Origin: an uncultured Sphingomonadaceae bacterium
GTDB lineage: Bacteria; Pseudomonadota; Alphaproteobacteria; Sphingomonadales; Sphingomonadaceae
Length of the DNA stretch: 64,000 bases
Assembly (NCBI GenBank): GCA_947489315.1
Contig: CANLCX010000003.1
Coordinates: forward strand, 124,001-188,000
Direction of reading: 5' to 3'
Part shown: piece by piece, positions 51,519-62,261 of the stretch
Layout of the letters: every line of letters starts with the position of its first letter
Numbering within the stretch: position 1 is the stretch's first letter
The notes under the pieces: model-generated
What the model was told of the DNA's origin: nothing
What the model saw: the letters and a program-made list of their open reading frames with translations, nothing else
Database searches by the model: none
Program-made: the position numbers and the translations under genes

Positions 51519-52532
51519 ATGGAAACGTTGGTAATGCCGGAAATTTCAATTCAGCTAAATGGTGATAGCAAAAATATAGCGAGCGGGATGACCGTGGCCG
51601 ATCTGGTCCGCACGCTTGATCTGGAGCCCGAGAAGGTTGCGGTGGAACGCAACCGAGAAATCGTGACCCGCTCGACCTTGGCAGATGTCATGGTGGAAGA
51701 GGGCGACCAGCTGGAAATCGTGCATTTCGTTGGTGGCGGTGATCATGCAAGCGGTGTCGCCGCTGATGACGGCTGGAGCGTGGCGGGTCAAAATTTCAAA
51801 TCACGCCTGATTGTCGGTACCGGCAAATATAAGGATTTTGAAGAAAATGCGGCAGCCGTTGCAGCGGCGGGAGCAGAGATTGTAACCGTGGCGGTGCGGC
51901 GCGTAAATGTCATGGATCGCAATCAGCCGATGTTGACGGACTTTATCGATCCCAAGAAAGTCACCTATTTGCCTAATACGGCGGGCTGCTTTAATGCTGA
52001 TGATGCTATCCGGACTTTGCGGCTGGCGCGCGAAGCGGGCGGTTGGGATCTGGTGAAGCTCGAAGTGCTGGGCGAAGCGAAGACGCTCTATCCCAATATG
52101 CGGGAAACTTTGGAGGCAACCGAAGTGCTCGCCAAAGAAGGCTTCAAGCCGATGGTCTATTGCGTCGATGATCCGATAGCCGCGAAACAGCTCGAGGATG
52201 CAGGCGCGGTTGCGATCATGCCCTTGGGCGCGCCGATTGGTTCGGGGCTCGGCATTCAAAACCGTGTCACTATCCGTTTGATTGTCGAAGGGGCCAGCGT
52301 TCCAGTACTGGTCGACGCCGGTGTGGGTACGGCCAGCGATGCCGCGGTGGCGATGGAGCTGGGTTGTGATGGCGTATTGATGAATACGGCGATTGCCGAG
52401 GCTAAGCAGCCAGTGCGCATGGCTCGCGCTATGAAGCTTGCGGTGGAAGCTGGTCGGGAAGCTTATTTGTCCGGCCGGATGGGACGGCGGATGTATGCAG
52501 ACCCCTCGAGTCCCCTTTCTGGGCTGATTTAA
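51519..52532 (+). CDS. thiG: ThiS-ThiG fusion: sulfur carrier plus thiazole synthase
   Basis: 337 residues, two fused proteins. Residues 8-74 are ThiS ([20 protein letters not shown]) ending VHFVGGG (Gly72-74). Residues about 84-337 are Thi[37 protein letters not shown] (Schiff-base Lys region), [30 protein letters not shown] (core [14 protein letters not shown]) and [23 protein letters not shown]. ThiS normally needs a free C-terminal Gly-Gly for thiocarboxylation, so the fusion must be cut or work differently. The fused form is known in proteobacteria. ATG 51519 or ATG 51534 could start it. Divergent from aroQ; no TPP riboswitch recognised upstream. Confidence 0.94.
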
Positions 52533-52605
52533 CCTCATAATACACCGTGATTCGGTGTCATCTGTAACTAACTGAATAGTAACAATAGTTACATAGTTTT
52601 ACTTT

Positions 52606-52635
52606 GATCGACGTCCCATGGTCGTTGGTCGAAGC
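52606..52635 (+). promoter_or_regulatory. Candidate LytTR box upstream of the UrcA gene
   Basis: GATCGACGT (52606-52614), 12 bases, GGTCGAAGC (52627-52635): two related 9-mers 21 bases apart, the arrangement used by LytTR regulators. On the other strand GTTCGATAAAC (52664-52674) and GGTCGGTGAAC (52644-52654) repeat a similar word 20 bases apart, with another GGTCGGTGA at 52684-52692. These surround the likely promoter of the UrcA gene. The regulator at 53497 is the obvious candidate. Confidence 0.45.
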
Positions 52636-52717
52636 TTTTTGCTGTTCACCGACCAAAATGGCTGTTTATCGAACATCGGATGCTCACCGACCGACCTTCC
52701 CGTATCTAAATATGCGA

Positions 52718-52855
52718 GGCGGGAGCAGCAGCATAAGTCTTAAAGCTCTTCCCCGAGCTGGTCGAAACAAACTGCTCCCGCCGTCATAAACCCCATCCCT
52801 TCTTTGAGCAGGGATTATCTGGGCAAAACCGGTCCCCCAAACTTCCGGACTGCCC
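52718..52855 (+). promoter_or_regulatory. Structured leader of the UrcA gene
   Basis: Three consecutive hairpins precede the gene: GGCGGGAGCAG/CTGCTCCCGCC (52718-52728 with 52772-52782, perfect 11 bp, inner AGCTC/GAGCT at 52744-52748 and 52755-52759), ATCCC/GGGAT (52795-52799, 52811-52815), and GGGCA..CCGG/CCGG..TGCCC (52821-52855). This fills most of the 348-base gap 52533-52880. If the promoter is at about 52600-52700 this is a 150-180 nt folded 5' leader, or a separate small RNA. Confidence 0.5.
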
Positions 52856-52880
52856 CAAAATACTGTTGAGGAGTGAACAT

Positions 52881-53237
52881 ATGAGAAATTCAATTTTGAG
52901 CAAAGGCCTTTGTGCCGCCGCCGCAATCGCCGTAACCGTCACTGGTTTCTCGGCCAGCGCAAGCGCCCAGGGCCGGACTACCAAGTCAGTCGAAGTTAGC
53001 TATGCCGACCTGGACCTGACCAGCGCCGATGGCCAGCAAACGCTGGATGGCCGGATCAAGGGTGCCGTGCGCCAGGTTTGTGGTTCCTATAATTCGAAAA
53101 GCCTTCGCGACATCGCCGACCATAGTGGTTGCGTTAAAGAAGCAAAATTCTCCGCCAAGCGCGCCAAGGTATCGCTGATCGCTAGAGCCGAAGCGGGTAC
53201 GCTCGGCACAAGCACTGTGGTTATCGGCGGTAACTAA
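52881..53237 (+). CDS. UrcA-family exported protein
   Basis: 118 residues from ATG 52881, preceded by GAGGAG (52868-52873) eight bases upstream; an in-frame TTG at 52866 is inside the ribosome site and is rejected. Signal peptide (MRNSILSKGLCAAAAIAVTVTGFSASASA-Q, cut after about 29). The mature UrcA domain is SVEVSYADLDLTSADGQQTLD (core VSYADLDLTSADGQQTL, about 38-54), then RIKGAVRQVCGSYNS and DHSGCVKEAKFSAK, with two Cys probably forming a disulfide. Function unknown; UrcA members are sphingomonad/caulobacter periplasmic proteins. Ends at a strong terminator, monocistronic, near a LytTR kinase-regulator pair. Confidence 0.85.
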   Translation: MRNSILSKGLCAAAAIAVTVTGFSASASAQGRTTKSVEVSYADLDLTSADGQQTLDGRIKGAVRQVCGSYNSKSLRDIADHSGCVKEAKFSAKRAKVSLIARAEAGTLGTSTVVIGGN

Positions 53238-53299
53238 ATCAATCCAAGAGCCGCGAATCCCAATTAAGCGGCCGCCTACTTGGCCAAACCTCCTGATGA

Positions 53300-53330
53300 C
53301 CCCGGTGCCCTTACACCGGGGTTTATTTTT
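53300..53330 (+). terminator. Rho-independent terminator of the UrcA gene
   Basis: CCCCGGTG (53300-53307), loop CCCTTA, CACCGGGG (53314-53321), then TTTATTTTT. Eight perfect GC-rich base pairs followed by a T-run, 62 bases after the UrcA stop. Confidence 0.9.
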
Positions 53331-53356
53331 GTCTGTAGTCATTCGGTCCAGCACCA

Positions 53357-53440
53357 CCGTTCGTCCTTAGCCTGTCGAAGGCCGTCCAAGAGTATCGCTG
53401 ATCGGTAAGGGAATCGTTTCGACAAGCTCAGCCCGAACGG
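53357..53440. repeat. Dispersed inverted repeat between the UrcA and LytTR genes
   Basis: CCGTTCGTCCTTAGCCTGTCGAA (53357-53379) and TTCGACAAGCTCAGCCCGAACGG (53418-53440) are imperfect inverted arms about 38 bases apart. This CCGTTCG...TTCGACA type is one I associate with sphingomonad genomes, unverified. It lies downstream of the UrcA terminator and before the LytTR gene's 3' end, where no gene was found. Confidence 0.65.
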
Positions 53441-53496
53441 GTTGGGGGAATTATGGGAGAAGGGCTCAGGACGAAAAGGAGTTTTGGATGTAACTC

Positions 53497-54264
53497 CTAC
53501 CGTCCGGCGAGCTTCTTCGCTTCCGCCAAATGGGTGCGGCCGATGCGGATTTCCGTGCCGCATTTCAGGCAGGCCATCCATATGCCGCCGCCATCGTGGC
53601 GCAAGCCGCCAATCCAGTCGCGGCGGACCAGATGGGACCGGTGCAGGCGGATAAAATGTTCCGGATTAAGCCGCCCCTCCAGTCCGGTAATCGTCTGGTG
53701 CAGCAAATAGCTGGATCCACCCTGTTCGCTGCCGACATGCAATCGCATATAGTCGCGTTCGGCTTCGATCCGGTTGATCTCAGAGGCTGCAATGCGGCGC
53801 AGCTCCGATTTATAAGGGACCCAGAATTCTTCTGCCCAGGGGGAATCCTCGGCCGGTACCGGGACCTGATCGGTCTGGCGTTCCAGCACGCGGGTAATGG
53901 CTATGGAAAGTCGTTCCGCCTCAACCGGTTTGAGCAAATAGTCGATCGCAGCGACACCAAAAGCTTCGACAGCAAATTTGTCAAAAGCGGTGACAAAGAT
54001 AATGGCGGGCGGCGTTTCCAGTTCGGAGAGTTTCTTGGCCACTTCCAGTCCGTCCATGCCCGGCATCGCAATGTCGAGCAGCAAGAGGTCCGGCTCCAAC
54101 TGATGGGCAAGCCGAATGGCGGCTTCTCCGTCACTCGCTGTGCCGACCAGATTAATATGTTCCTGCCGGGCGCATAGCAGCTGCAATCGTTCGATTGCGA
54201 GCGGTTCATCATCGACAATCATCGTATTCAGCTGTGATGGCGGTGAGGCCGTATCGTCTGCCAT
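53497..54264 (-). CDS. LytTR-family response regulator
   Basis: 255 residues. Receiver domain (about 12-130): NTMIVDDEPLAIERLQLL, phospho-acceptor Asp64 in LLLLDIAMPGMDGLEV, conserved Thr/Lys region FVTAFDKFAVEAFGV and DYLLKPVEAERL. LytTR DNA-binding domain (about 150-250): ELRRIAASEINRIEAERDYM, TGLEGRLNPEHFIRLHRSHL and RTHLAEAKKL. DNA contacts come from the extended beta strands. It sits 2 bases after the kinase stop, the standard LytS/LytTR arrangement. Candidate target boxes with its typical geometry lie upstream of both flanking genes (52606, 55468). Confidence 0.94.
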   Translation of the reverse strand: MADDTASPPSQLNTMIVDDEPLAIERLQLLCARQEHINLVGTASDGEAAIRLAHQLEPDLLLLDIAMPGMDGLEVAKKLSELETPPAIIFVTAFDKFAVEAFGVAAIDYLLKPVEAERLSIAITRVLERQTDQVPVPAEDSPWAEEFWVPYKSELRRIAASEINRIEAERDYMRLHVGSEQGGSSYLLHQTITGLEGRLNPEHFIRLHRSHLVRRDWIGGLRHDGGGIWMACLKCGTEIRIGRTHLAEAKKLAGR

Positions 54265-54266
54265 AA

Positions 54267-55394
54267 TCAGATATCCGCTAAGAGAGGCATGGTCAGTTCC
54301 GCAACAAATCCGCCGGTTTCAGGATGGAATGTCTTTAACTTGGCCTGAGAACCAAATCTAGTCTCTAGCCGGTCGCGGACATTGGCCAAGCCAATGCCGT
54401 TATTCATGCCGTTGGATTTATTCTTCGGCTGTGCTTCGCCATCATCGCTGACCGTGATTATCAGGAAATCGCGTTCGGTCGTCGCACTGATGCGGATCGT
54501 CACAGGGCGCTTGCTATGGGCCACGCCATGTTTGATCGCATTTTCCACCAGCGGTTGCAGGATCAGGCCGGGCACCAAAACATCATCCAATTCTGCTGGT
54601 ACATCTGTCTCGGTTTTCAGCCGCTTGGGAAAGCGCACCGCTTCGATGTCCAGATAGAGCTTTTGCAGATGCACTTCTTCCGACAGCGCGACATCTTCGA
54701 GCGGGTCTCCGGACAAGCTGGTACGATAGAATTTCGAGAGGTTGAGGATCATCTTCTCGGCTTCGGCCGGCTGGCTGCGCATCACCAAGGTACTGAGACT
54801 ATTGAGCGTATTGAACAGGAAGTGCGGATTGACCTGATAGCGCAAGCTGCGCAGTTCGGCATCTTGCGCCGCCTGAGCAAAGCGGGCGGCCTTGCGTTCC
54901 ACCGTGCGAACCTCGCTAGCATAGCTGAGTGTTAAGTAGAGCGAGGCCCAGCTGATCATGAAGAAAAAGCGTGACACACTGTCCTCGACAATGGCCTTTA
55001 GAGCATAGTTTTCAGTCTCCATATACTCGCGCATTTTTTCCATATGTGCTTCGTCAAACAGGCTTTGCGGATCATAAACATTGAACATGTAATAGTTGAA
55101 GATCGCAATAGCGACAGCGCAAGGGATCGCGCCTGCAAAAGCGGTGATGATCCGCGTCGACAGTGCCTTTTCCTCAAATAGCCGCAACAAGCGATATAAT
55201 AGATAGGTTATGGCGATCCCGAACAGGGTCACCACCACGCGGCGCAGAGCCAGTTCTTCCTGGGCTGGCCAGTCGCTAACCGCCGCCCGCAAAGTGATGA
55301 TGATGACGTAAAACAACCAAAAGCCAAGGATCGACAGGATGGCGACCTGCTGTCCTACGGACGGTTTGTGATTTCCGATGTCAAATTTTCTCAT
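54267..55394 (-). CDS. LytS-like sensor histidine kinase
   Basis: 375 residues. Four hydrophobic segments in the first ~165 residues (VAILSILGFWLFYVIIITLR, VVVTLFGIAITYLLYRLL, IITAFAGAIPCAVAIAIFNYYM and FFFMISWASLYLTLSYAS) form the sensor. The His_kinase domain has LRYQVNPHFLFNTLNSLS with phospho-His191, then GLILQPLVENAIKHGV (N-box) and GIGLANVRDRLETRFG (G-box). No periplasmic sensing domain of note, so the signal is probably in the membrane. Two bases before the LytTR regulator; clear operon. The signal and target are unknown. Confidence 0.93.
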   Translation of the reverse strand: MRKFDIGNHKPSVGQQVAILSILGFWLFYVIIITLRAAVSDWPAQEELALRRVVVTLFGIAITYLLYRLLRLFEEKALSTRIITAFAGAIPCAVAIAIFNYYMFNVYDPQSLFDEAHMEKMREYMETENYALKAIVEDSVSRFFFMISWASLYLTLSYASEVRTVERKAARFAQAAQDAELRSLRYQVNPHFLFNTLNSLSTLVMRSQPAEAEKMILNLSKFYRTSLSGDPLEDVALSEEVHLQKLYLDIEAVRFPKRLKTETDVPAELDDVLVPGLILQPLVENAIKHGVAHSKRPVTIRISATTERDFLIITVSDDGEAQPKNKSNGMNNGIGLANVRDRLETRFGSQAKLKTFHPETGGFVAELTMPLLADI

Positions 55395-55467
55395 TCAGCG
55401 CCTAATTTCTCATTGGCATGCAGCTTAGAATATAATGGTATCAATTGTCTCTATCGGAATCGTGTCC

Positions 55468-55497
55468 GGTCGAAACATGCTTGCGGTTGGTCGAAAC
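55468..55497 (+). promoter_or_regulatory. Candidate LytTR box upstream of 55647
   Basis: GGTCGAAAC (55468-55476), 12 bases, GGTCGAAAC (55489-55497): perfect 9-bp direct repeats 21 bases apart, the typical geometry for LytTR-domain binding. The site is in the 252-base gap between the kinase (start 55394) and the hypothetical gene (start 55647), so it could control either. Confidence 0.55.
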
Positions 55498-55646
55498 TTT
55501 CGGTCGTGGCCAGGTAATTTCCAAAATTTTTGAACCTCTTGGCAATAAAGATCCAGCAATTTTGGGTATATTTAATCAAATCCTAACCATGTTTTGGTCA
55601 AGTGACTCTCGTGGGGACAAGAAAATGTTCCAGAGTAGGAGTTACC

Positions 55647-56198
55647 ATGACCAAAGCGATGCAACCGGTACCAGGCGCAATGACGCTGTCGGAAATGAAA
55701 GAATTTGCGGGCTTTGGTTCAGCGACTCAGCGCTATATCCGTCGCTCGCTCGACGTCGGGCTGGATCGGTCCGATGCAATCCAAACCTGGTCGCGTGATG
55801 CGGTTGAAGAAGCTGGCATCCAAGTGCAGATGAAACTCTACAGACGGCTGGCAGACATCCGTAAATCTATTCCGCAGGATTGTGGGATGGATAGCATCGA
55901 AAAATTCATGCCCGCCTTGATCTCGCTATCGGCTTATGATCTGGGGCAGGGGCGCATTAGCAGCTTCCCCGCTTACCGTTTTCTCTATGAACGCTTGCTC
56001 GGCCCCGATGCCCGGCCATGGCTGCCCGGCAGTTTTTGTGCTGCCGCTTCCTTGCCGCATCTGCACCCAAAGACCCGCAAGGGCCTGCTGCAATCGATTA
56101 GCGAAGCGGCTGCCACCGCACCCGGCTGGTCCACGCGTGAACCCAGCTTCTTCCCTGAATGGGTGGAGAAGGTGGATATGAACAAGGCTGCCCACTAG
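55647..56198 (+). CDS. Hypothetical protein, unknown function
   Basis: 183 residues from ATG 55647 (TAGGAG well placed; an ATG at 55602 lies before that site). MTKAMQPVPGAMTLSEMKEF opens; a helical, Trp/Arg/Leu-rich soluble body follows (GSATQRYIRRSLDVGLDRSD, VQMKLYRRLADIRKS, YDLGQGRISSFPAYRFLYERL, core AYRFLYERLL). No signal or membrane segment. I do not recognise the family. Downstream of the LytTR-type repeat at 55468 and convergent with the S9 peptidase. A role downstream of the LytTR pair is inference from that site only. Confidence 0.7.
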   Translation: MTKAMQPVPGAMTLSEMKEFAGFGSATQRYIRRSLDVGLDRSDAIQTWSRDAVEEAGIQVQMKLYRRLADIRKSIPQDCGMDSIEKFMPALISLSAYDLGQGRISSFPAYRFLYERLLGPDARPWLPGSFCAAASLPHLHPKTRKGLLQSISEAAATAPGWSTREPSFFPEWVEKVDMNKAAH

Positions 56199-59995: not shown

Positions 59996-60127
59996 GATGT
60001 CCTTTTGAGTCGTGCTAGTTTCTTCGGCCATTGCTGTGTTTGTCAGATTCTAACCAATTTACCAAAATCTAACGTCTTGGACATAGGATTGGCGTTGATA
60101 TTTTTTCCCGTCGGAAAGCGCTCTGTG

Positions 60128-60586
60128 ATGTTTCTACCGTTCAAACTTGTCGGATTAATAGTAGGAGGCGTCATTGCTATAGCTGCTTGCATCATGTTTT
60201 ACCAAGCCGCCGATATACGCATGAACTACACACTGGTCGAAGCAAGAATCACCTCGGTTGAAACGGATTGTTTCATAAAAGAAAACTATAAAAATAAATT
60301 GGTCGATGAAGCGACGCAAAAGCTTGCCTATATGGACTGCTCAAAAGCACCCGCAGCCGCCGCAAAACACAAATTCGAAAAACGGGATATTCGAAAAAGA
60401 GCTCAAATCGCATATCGATATACTTCACCGGTAGATGCAAATAAATATACCGGACATTTCGAAAGGAATGATGATGTTGAAGATTTGGTGGTTGGAAAGA
60501 CAGTGTTTGTTCATGCTCACAATGGAGAACCCGATAACTCGCGGACAACCAAAAGCAATTTTTTCATAGCAGATAGTGGCGTCTAG
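60128..60586 (+). CDS. Small membrane-anchored DUF3592-like protein
   Basis: 152 residues from ATG 60128; a GTG at 60125 or ATG at 60005 is possible, but the longer form is unlike the family. One membrane segment (PFKLVGLIVGGVIAIAACIMFY) then a polar beta-type domain: YTLVEARITSVETDCFIKEN, RDIRKRAQIAYRYTSPVDAN and VVGKTVFVHAHNGEPDNSR. The plan of a single anchor and a V-E-A-x-I-T/x-Y-x-Y core resembles DUF3592. Base use is AT-richer than its neighbours. Function unknown. About 114 bases separate it from the next gene. Confidence 0.6.
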   Translation: MFLPFKLVGLIVGGVIAIAACIMFYQAADIRMNYTLVEARITSVETDCFIKENYKNKLVDEATQKLAYMDCSKAPAAAAKHKFEKRDIRKRAQIAYRYTSPVDANKYTGHFERNDDVEDLVVGKTVFVHAHNGEPDNSRTTKSNFFIADSGV

Positions 60587-61664: not shown

Positions 61665-62261
61665 ATGTCAATAGCTAAACGACGCCTCTCCCCAGAAGAA
61701 AGCCGTGGCATGGCCATGGCCGCTGCCCGTGATTTGTTGATCGAAGCCGGGCCGCAGGCGGTAACGCTGAAAGCGGTCGCTTCGCGGATCGGCCGCACCC
61801 ATGCCAATTTGTTGCACCATTTCGGTTCCGCATCGGGACTGCAAAAATCGCTGGCGCAATATCTCACTGATCAGGTGTGCGGGTCGATCGCGCAGGCGGT
61901 GTTAGACTCTCGTACTGGTGAAGGCACGGTGCGTGATATTGTAGACCTGACCTTTGACGCTTTTGACAAGCAGGGTGCGGGCGCTTTGTCTTCATGGATG
62001 TTGCTGACGGGAAATGAAGATGCGCTCGATCCGATTGTCGATGCGATTCATGCCTTGGTCGATGAAGTGGGCGAAGGCGGCCACGAAGATCGAGAAATGC
62101 ATGAAGATACGCTGGCGCTGGTGCTGATGGCATTGGGTGATGCCCTGATCGGCGAGCGGCTATCCGATTCGCTTGACCTGCCGCGTCATAGCGCGCGCGA
62201 CATGGCGGAGCGCCAGCTGGACCATGCGCTGGATCGCTGGAAAAAGGACCATCAGGACTAA
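61665..62261 (+). CDS. TetR-family regulator, divergent from PF10118 gene
   Basis: 198 residues. The N-terminal helix-turn-helix (about 15-62) contains AAARDLLIEAGPQAVTLKAV, ASRIGRTHANLLHHFGSAS. The ligand domain (about 75-190) has ADAIHALVDEVGEGGHEDRE (core) and MALGDALIGERLSDSLDLPR. Its divergent neighbour 60700-61599 shares the AT-rich 65-base promoter region (61600-61664), where I see no clear palindrome. Likely represses that gene and itself (inference). Confidence 0.85.
   Translation: MSIAKRRLSPEESRGMAMAAARDLLIEAGPQAVTLKAVASRIGRTHANLLHHFGSASGLQKSLAQYLTDQVCGSIAQAVLDSRTGEGTVRDIVDLTFDAFDKQGAGALSSWMLLTGNEDALDPIVDAIHALVDEVGEGGHEDREMHEDTLALVLMALGDALIGERLSDSLDLPRHSARDMAERQLDHALDRWKKDHQD

Follow-up and report, generated by a model that had tools for sequence, protein, structure and literature searches.

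A kinase–LytTR operon of Sphingomonadaceae is accompanied by paired direct repeats that, judging from sequence comparison, are very probably the operators of the adjacent LytTR regulator, which would control its own operon together with genes for exported and membrane proteins, plausibly in an envelope-stress response. The operon lies in a 64,000-nucleotide stretch of DNA from an uncultured Sphingomonadaceae bacterium (contig CANLCX010000003.1, positions 124,001 to 188,000), hereafter the window. In it, GGTCGAAAC starts at 55468 and again at 55489, in front of the operon, and GATCGACGT at 52606 is followed by GGTCGAAGC at 52627, upstream of urcA; the two copies are 21 bp apart in each case, and a further GGTCGAAAC at 52760 is single and unpaired. 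A preliminary description of this DNA had reported both pairs, likened their 9-12-9 geometry to that of LytTR sites and read the boxes, common to two promoters beside a linked kinase/LytTR pair, as a local regulon of urcA and a divergent gene at 55647 encoding a 183-residue protein. The pairs, their geometry and the sharing of the box are borne out here, in the window and in orthologues, with urcA as a likely target; the extent of the regulon and its second member come out differently. LytTR operators are described in the relevant passage of PMC4847170 as repeats of 9–11 nt, 11–13 nt apart, with no shared consensus, and the 9-12-9 arrangement fits that range.

The regulator gene (53497..54264, − strand) encodes a receiver domain (PF00072, 89.1 bits) and a LytTR domain (PF04397, 54.8 bits). 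Upstream of it on the same strand is the gene for a membrane histidine kinase (54267..55394) with three hydrophobic segments. PF06580 and PF02518 (HATPase_c) were the only Pfam families found in the kinase at E <= 0.001, and the 5TMR-LYT sensor was not found; of the earlier label, a LytS/LytTR pair, the linkage of a kinase to a LytTR protein holds and LytS proper does not. The best NCBIfam match of the regulator, BtsR NF008677, reaches 136.6 bits, under the cut-off of 246, so that the protein does not qualify as a BtsR equivalog. With orthologues called at E <= 1e-40 and nine candidates scored per genome, the regulator is present in 227 of 298 genomes of the family and in 81 of 96 genera. We analysed 78 orthologous loci, 22 from the window's genus (window included) and 56 from other genera; three of the 22 (L060–L062) are at contig ends. 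The kinase gene adjoins the regulator gene in 76 of the 78.

The box in front of the kinase gene consists of CCGGTCGAA (55466..55474, + strand) and, 21 bp on, TTGGTCGAA (55487..55495, + strand), a pair that scores 27.2 bits and is the best profile match in the genome. Half-sites were scored with a matrix trained solely on the kinase boxes of other genera, T(.59) T(.66) G/C G(.81) T(.97) C(.98) G(.99) A(.92) A(.67), and their consensus is TTnGTCGAA. Kinase boxes of at least 17 bits occur in 47/53 other-genus and 20/20 same-genus loci, and in 72 of the 73 loci of named genomes that had usable DNA upstream, a set that partly overlaps the genomes of the other comparisons; other periods from 15 to 28 give at most 2 at the named-genome loci, and the reverse strand at most 1. 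Because the matrix was trained on kinase boxes, the scores and period that these boxes show under it do not count as independent evidence. Expectation maximization (EM) without a prior motif recovered GTCGAA-N15-GTCGAa, with TT ahead of the second copy, from other-genus DNA upstream of the kinase (n = 53), and TTcGTCGa...TTcGTCG from other-genus DNA upstream of urcA (n = 44), both with a period of 21. The log-likelihoods were 610 and 466, respectively, versus 120–143 and 117–135 in eight dinucleotide shuffles each. Among species the spacers diverge and the half-sites stay.

To the idea that the boxes are chance words, or a repeated element such as the TTCGACAAGCTCAG-type repeat near 53420, we give practically no credence. 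The shuffle and period results already contradict chance as the sole explanation: de novo recovery across genera exceeds the shuffles, the period is specific at unlinked promoters as well, and the spacers diverge. What speaks for it is crude counting. A genome-wide scan for GGTCGAARC-N12-GGTCGAARC, proposed in the preliminary description, gave one occurrence and no enrichment, and GGTCGAAAC-N12-GGTCGAAAC with up to three mismatches has 12 matches in the genome, against 20 for the reversed control. The half-sites are degenerate and common, which makes enrichment of so crude a pattern uninformative, and the case is therefore made by comparison across species; in orthologous promoters, the other place where the motif was to be sought, it is kept. 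Within the window GGTCGAARC was observed six times (1.06 expected; six reached by 1 of 100 shuffles) and GGTCGAAAC-N12-GGTCGAAAC, again with up to three mismatches, twice (0.04 expected). The second of these copies (60235) is within an open reading frame (ORF), as are the window pairs of at least 18 bits at period 21 outside the two promoters, namely 30204 (in the 949-aa ORF of locus L154), 60233 (ORF 60005-60586) and 62034 (ORF 61665-62261).

The urcA gene (52881..53237, + strand), convergent to the kinase–LytTR operon in the window, encodes a UrcA-family protein with an N-terminal signal-like segment (TIGR04433, 74.2 bits, cut-off 25). The kinase-trained matrix finds 21-bp pairs in 30/44 other-genus and 10/10 same-genus urcA promoters. 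In the window the promoter carries an array of four half-sites on the + strand: TTGATCGAC (52604..52612, 7.7 bits), TTGGTCGAA 21 bp on (52625..52633, 15.5 bits), the weak TTCACCGAC (52645..52653, 4.6 bits) and TTTATCGAA (52665..52673, 13.2 bits), at offsets 0/21/41/61. A pair previously placed on the other strand near urcA does exist as sites but is better read as + strand half-sites 3 and 4 of this one array. Half-sites 1, 2 and 4 score at least 5 bits in all ten same-genus promoters, where the distances 21, 40 and 61 each occur in 10/10; among the 44 other-genus promoters the next most frequent pair distances are 62 (19), 41 (13) and 40 (9). The array is followed by a −10-like element, TATCTAA (52703..52709, + strand), whose TA stands at nucleotides 30–31 past half-site 4, and a profile of 24 other-genus arrays has TA at the same position (1.15 and 1.52 bits), a placement that suits an activator. 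We found urcA in 43/56 other-genus loci, always convergent to the regulator gene and within 500 bp of it in 41 of the 43, and in 10/22 same-genus loci, once 3.7 kb off. In three same-genus genomes (G012, G003 and G005) and one from another genus (G040) urcA is away from the regulator; the arrays there sum to 34–47 bits, and all four unlinked genes are beside thiSG. In the window, a single ORF (51519-52532) next to urcA is a thiS–thiG fusion.

The box at 55468 most likely belongs to the kinase–LytTR operon and would serve its autoregulation. We base this assignment on 27 other-genus loci in which the box is kept (at least 17 bits) and no homologue of the 183-aa protein was detected, and on the positional signal, which in other genera (n = 47) peaks at 0.60 bits, a weak value, on the kinase side versus 0.18 bits on the far side. 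A conserved block between the box and the kinase start (55421..55455, − strand; 20 same-genus loci) likely holds the kinase promoter. The local regulon proposed earlier, in which the box would serve the divergent 183-aa gene, is in our judgement unlikely, even though in 19/22 same-genus loci the kinase has a homologue of that gene as its divergent neighbour, the box faces it in the same orientation as the urcA boxes face urcA, and the sequence next to the box on the side of the 183-aa gene shows partial conservation within the genus. Besides the 27 loci, the lack of any fixed-position signal on the 183-aa side in other genera argues against it, as do the likely targets elsewhere in the genome and a CtrA-like site that the gene has near its own start. 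The 183-aa gene was set aside as a target because cross-genus support is lacking; the homologues assigned in other genera were obtained by iterating a profile, and some of them may be false. In the window's genus the flanks on both sides of the box are conserved, so that the gene may be co-regulated there. Its CtrA-like site is TTAATCAAATCCTAACC at 55572-55588, ~60–75 bp before the gene, and suggests cell-cycle control. Similar TTAACC...CTAACCATG blocks are seen in same-genus loci.

The regulon does not look purely local, as had been supposed, since boxes also precede unlinked genes. In the genome of the window, a sequence-only profile built from 58 kinase boxes ranks the kinase promoter first (E 6e-4), followed by two intergenic matches, before the gene for a 227-aa secreted calycin-like protein (here SEC; E 0.003) and before an M16 peptidase gene (E 0.05). 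Orthologues of both were fetched by protein, not by box. With loci L180–L196, which had been selected through the box itself, left out of the counts, a 21-period pair of at least 18 bits is found at 28/29 M16 and 23/24 SEC loci of the same genus; in both sets no other period between 15 and 28 yields more than 3, and the reverse strand yields 0. The box-selected loci L153, L180, L182, L186 and L192 are inside the 35-locus M16 table and outside its 28 other-genus loci. The M16 target is a member of a peptidase family, and SEC resembles nitrobindin-type β barrels (7sfn, E 3.6e-5; 3wje, 4e-4). The candidate targets, which include the psp-cluster genes described next, look exported or membrane-bound to the eye, and the N-termini of UrcA, SEC and the M16 protein were likewise judged signal-peptide-like by eye rather than by a prediction program.

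Occurrence of the box tracks the regulator gene. Of 16 genomes with the regulator, 13 hold a total of 30 matches of at least 18 bits, including nine kinase boxes, compared with three matches in two of 16 genomes in which no regulator was detected. Leaving the kinase boxes aside, there are 21 matches in 11/16 genomes with the regulator versus three in 2/16 without (Fisher p 0.003); these counts were made by hand, a match being taken as a kinase box when it lay close to the regulator coordinates, and some genomes scored as lacking the regulator may be false negatives, given the E threshold and the nine candidates per genome. Of the 21, six are in psp clusters, four precede M16 genes and one precedes urcA; many of the other ten are inside genes. 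The psp-cluster box (pspA-pspB-pspC) is present in 6/16 genomes with the regulator, representing six genera, and in 0/16 without (p 0.018). It starts at the pspC stop codon in L296, L297, L326 and L334 and at the stop of a small gene after pspC in L324 and L329, and precedes the next small, PspB-like gene of the cluster. We had considered these matches coding coincidences, a notion dropped once the frames were read and the box was seen to lie at a stop codon before the next gene. PspA, PspB and PspC were confirmed with Pfam in L334; the other five clusters were read by eye. At three further loci (L300, L333 and L303) the box adjoins genes with exported-looking products. The product at L303, in a genome scored as lacking the regulator, is a peptidyl-prolyl isomerase (PF00160); names considered for two exported box neighbours had no Pfam support in the first 80 residues and were not used.

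The three matches in genomes without a detected regulator speak for a reading in which the boxes are operators of another regulator, with the LytTR operon only one of its targets. We regard this as improbable. Two of the three are within ORFs. The third covers part of the start region of a peptidyl-prolyl isomerase gene in G075, and further species sampled from the genus of G075 (g51) do have the regulator; moreover, the geometry is that of LytTR operators and box density follows this LytTR regulator. The genome of the window encodes a second LytTR–kinase pair (L143), whose regulator is 42% identical. No GTCGAA box was found near the L143 locus, where the best pair scores 11 bits, and its regulator presumably reads another operator.

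Several observations weigh against control by the adjacent regulator, or against parts of it. In the own-genome profile ranking the fourth to sixth matches are within ORFs, urcA is only seventh (E 0.2), and many further matches are inside genes. Relative to its gene, the kinase box has the opposite orientation to the urcA, M16 and SEC boxes. Outside the genus the M16 boxes reach 14 bits in only 7/28 loci, and of 17 SEC loci one (L229) has a strong box and two have weak boxes, against four on the reverse strand at the weak level. Within the urcA array, half-site 3 scores at least 5 bits in only 4/10 same-genus promoters, and the four half-sites sum to at least 20 bits in 10/10 same-genus promoters and only 24/44 of those in other genera; thus the array is not universal. 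Finally, the 400 bp upstream of the genome's other urcA-family gene contain no box (best pair 0.3 bits).

From the boxes and their association with the regulator gene we infer binding by this regulator, activation and an envelope signal. In the mechanism that we propose, one regulator monomer would bind each TTnGTCGAA half-site, and two half-sites 21 bp apart, that is two turns of DNA, would make up one dimer site. The kinase–regulator operon would have one such site, for autoregulation, and urcA two in tandem, the last half-site ending ~29 nt before the −10-like TAt, a placement that would suit an activator in contact with RNA polymerase around the −35 region. Sites of this kind would act before the M16 peptidase and SEC genes at other places in the genome and within the psp cluster of some genera. 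With sites at its own operon, urcA, M16, SEC and psp, the system would coordinate exported and membrane proteins, and its trigger would most plausibly be envelope damage. The LytTR protein might instead bind the boxes as part of a nutrient sensor like BtsSR or YpdAB, a possibility that deserves some weight, though we hold it doubtful. It draws on the regulator's best NCBIfam match, BtsR, and on the response of both E. coli LytS/LytTR systems to pyruvate, as stated in a passage of PMC5552118; the recurrent target classes, which are UrcA, a peptidase, a secreted β barrel and the psp cluster, are not transporters and favour the envelope.

Several features of urcA and its surroundings accompany these results. 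Near the predicted 5′ end of its transcript is a stem-loop (52718..52782, + strand; fold of 52710-52795: −33.6 kcal/mol, z −4.77), and the leader fold has z < −2 in 12/24 other-genus and 9/10 same-genus cases. The leaders of other genera often have similar 5′ hairpins of differing sequence, several with C-rich loops. This GC-rich stem-loop is possibly an mRNA-stability or sRNA-contact element. UrcA has two invariant cysteines in an alignment of 38 sequences, and its predicted structure has a confident mature domain (strand–two helices–strand) for which the PDB gave no fold match (best E 4.4) and no sequence match (best E 0.72). Between urcA and the regulator gene, 53380-53445 holds TTCGACAAGCTCAGCCCGAACGG, which we take to be a REP-like word known from sphingomonad genomes. 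An Rfam search of 52500-55700 returned three matches at E <= 1, all far under the gathering scores.

Among known systems, E. coli YpdB is reported, in the part of PMC4847170 that concerns it, to bind GGCATTTCAT repeats in monomeric form, occupying the two sites successively. The E. coli YpdAB and BtsSR systems resemble the present one in combining a histidine kinase and a LytTR regulator with an operator of two direct repeats. They differ in operator sequence, and here the likely targets encode exported proteins rather than transporters, a box is found at the system's own operon, urcA has four half-sites, and the regulator scores under the BtsR cut-off. The likeness to the Psp response consists in the pspA, pspB and pspC homologues, whose cluster carries a box in six genera, the difference in the position of the box, which lies downstream of pspC and ahead of small PspB-like genes. 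A passage on LytTR in a survey of Psp contexts (PMC11237479) concerns Toastrack proteins, and the survey's text has no word starting with Sphingo. In the open literature, which leaves most subscription journals outside and so is no proof of absence, we found no paper joining the UrcA family with LytTR and none on an envelope-stress two-component LytTR system in Sphingomonas or Novosphingobium. With the present results, the UrcA proteins of this large bacterial family gain a conserved regulatory context, an operator sequence and a list of candidates for co-regulation.

A further parallel is the Caulobacter UzcRS system, whose regulator UzcR is of the OmpR type, a class other than LytTR. According to the sections of PMC8963506 that deal with it, UzcRS drives urcA in response to U, Zn and Cu, its regulon comprises mainly genes for exported and membrane proteins, metallopeptidases included, and UrcA is periplasmic, of unknown function and known for its uranium response; a passage of PMC12864828 names envelope stresses or toxic metals as activators of UzcSR. 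The UzcR site, CATTAC-N6-TTAA, was not found with up to two mismatches in 52533-52880, before urcA. In Caulobacter, as probably here, a two-component system drives urcA, with a partly similar target set that here would be under LytTR control; the two systems differ in regulator class and site. We tentatively propose, as somewhat short of an even prospect, that Sphingomonadaceae have a dedicated LytTR envelope-stress system, with 21-bp-phased TTnGTCGAA sites at its own operon, urcA, M16 and psp, in a UzcRS-like role. If so, effectors similar to those of UzcRS would be under an unrelated class of regulator, suggesting a possible regulator replacement in which envelope effectors came under one two-component system in Caulobacter and another in sphingomonads. 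By this comparison, the circuit in sphingomonads resembles a LytTR counterpart of UzcRS with an analogous role.

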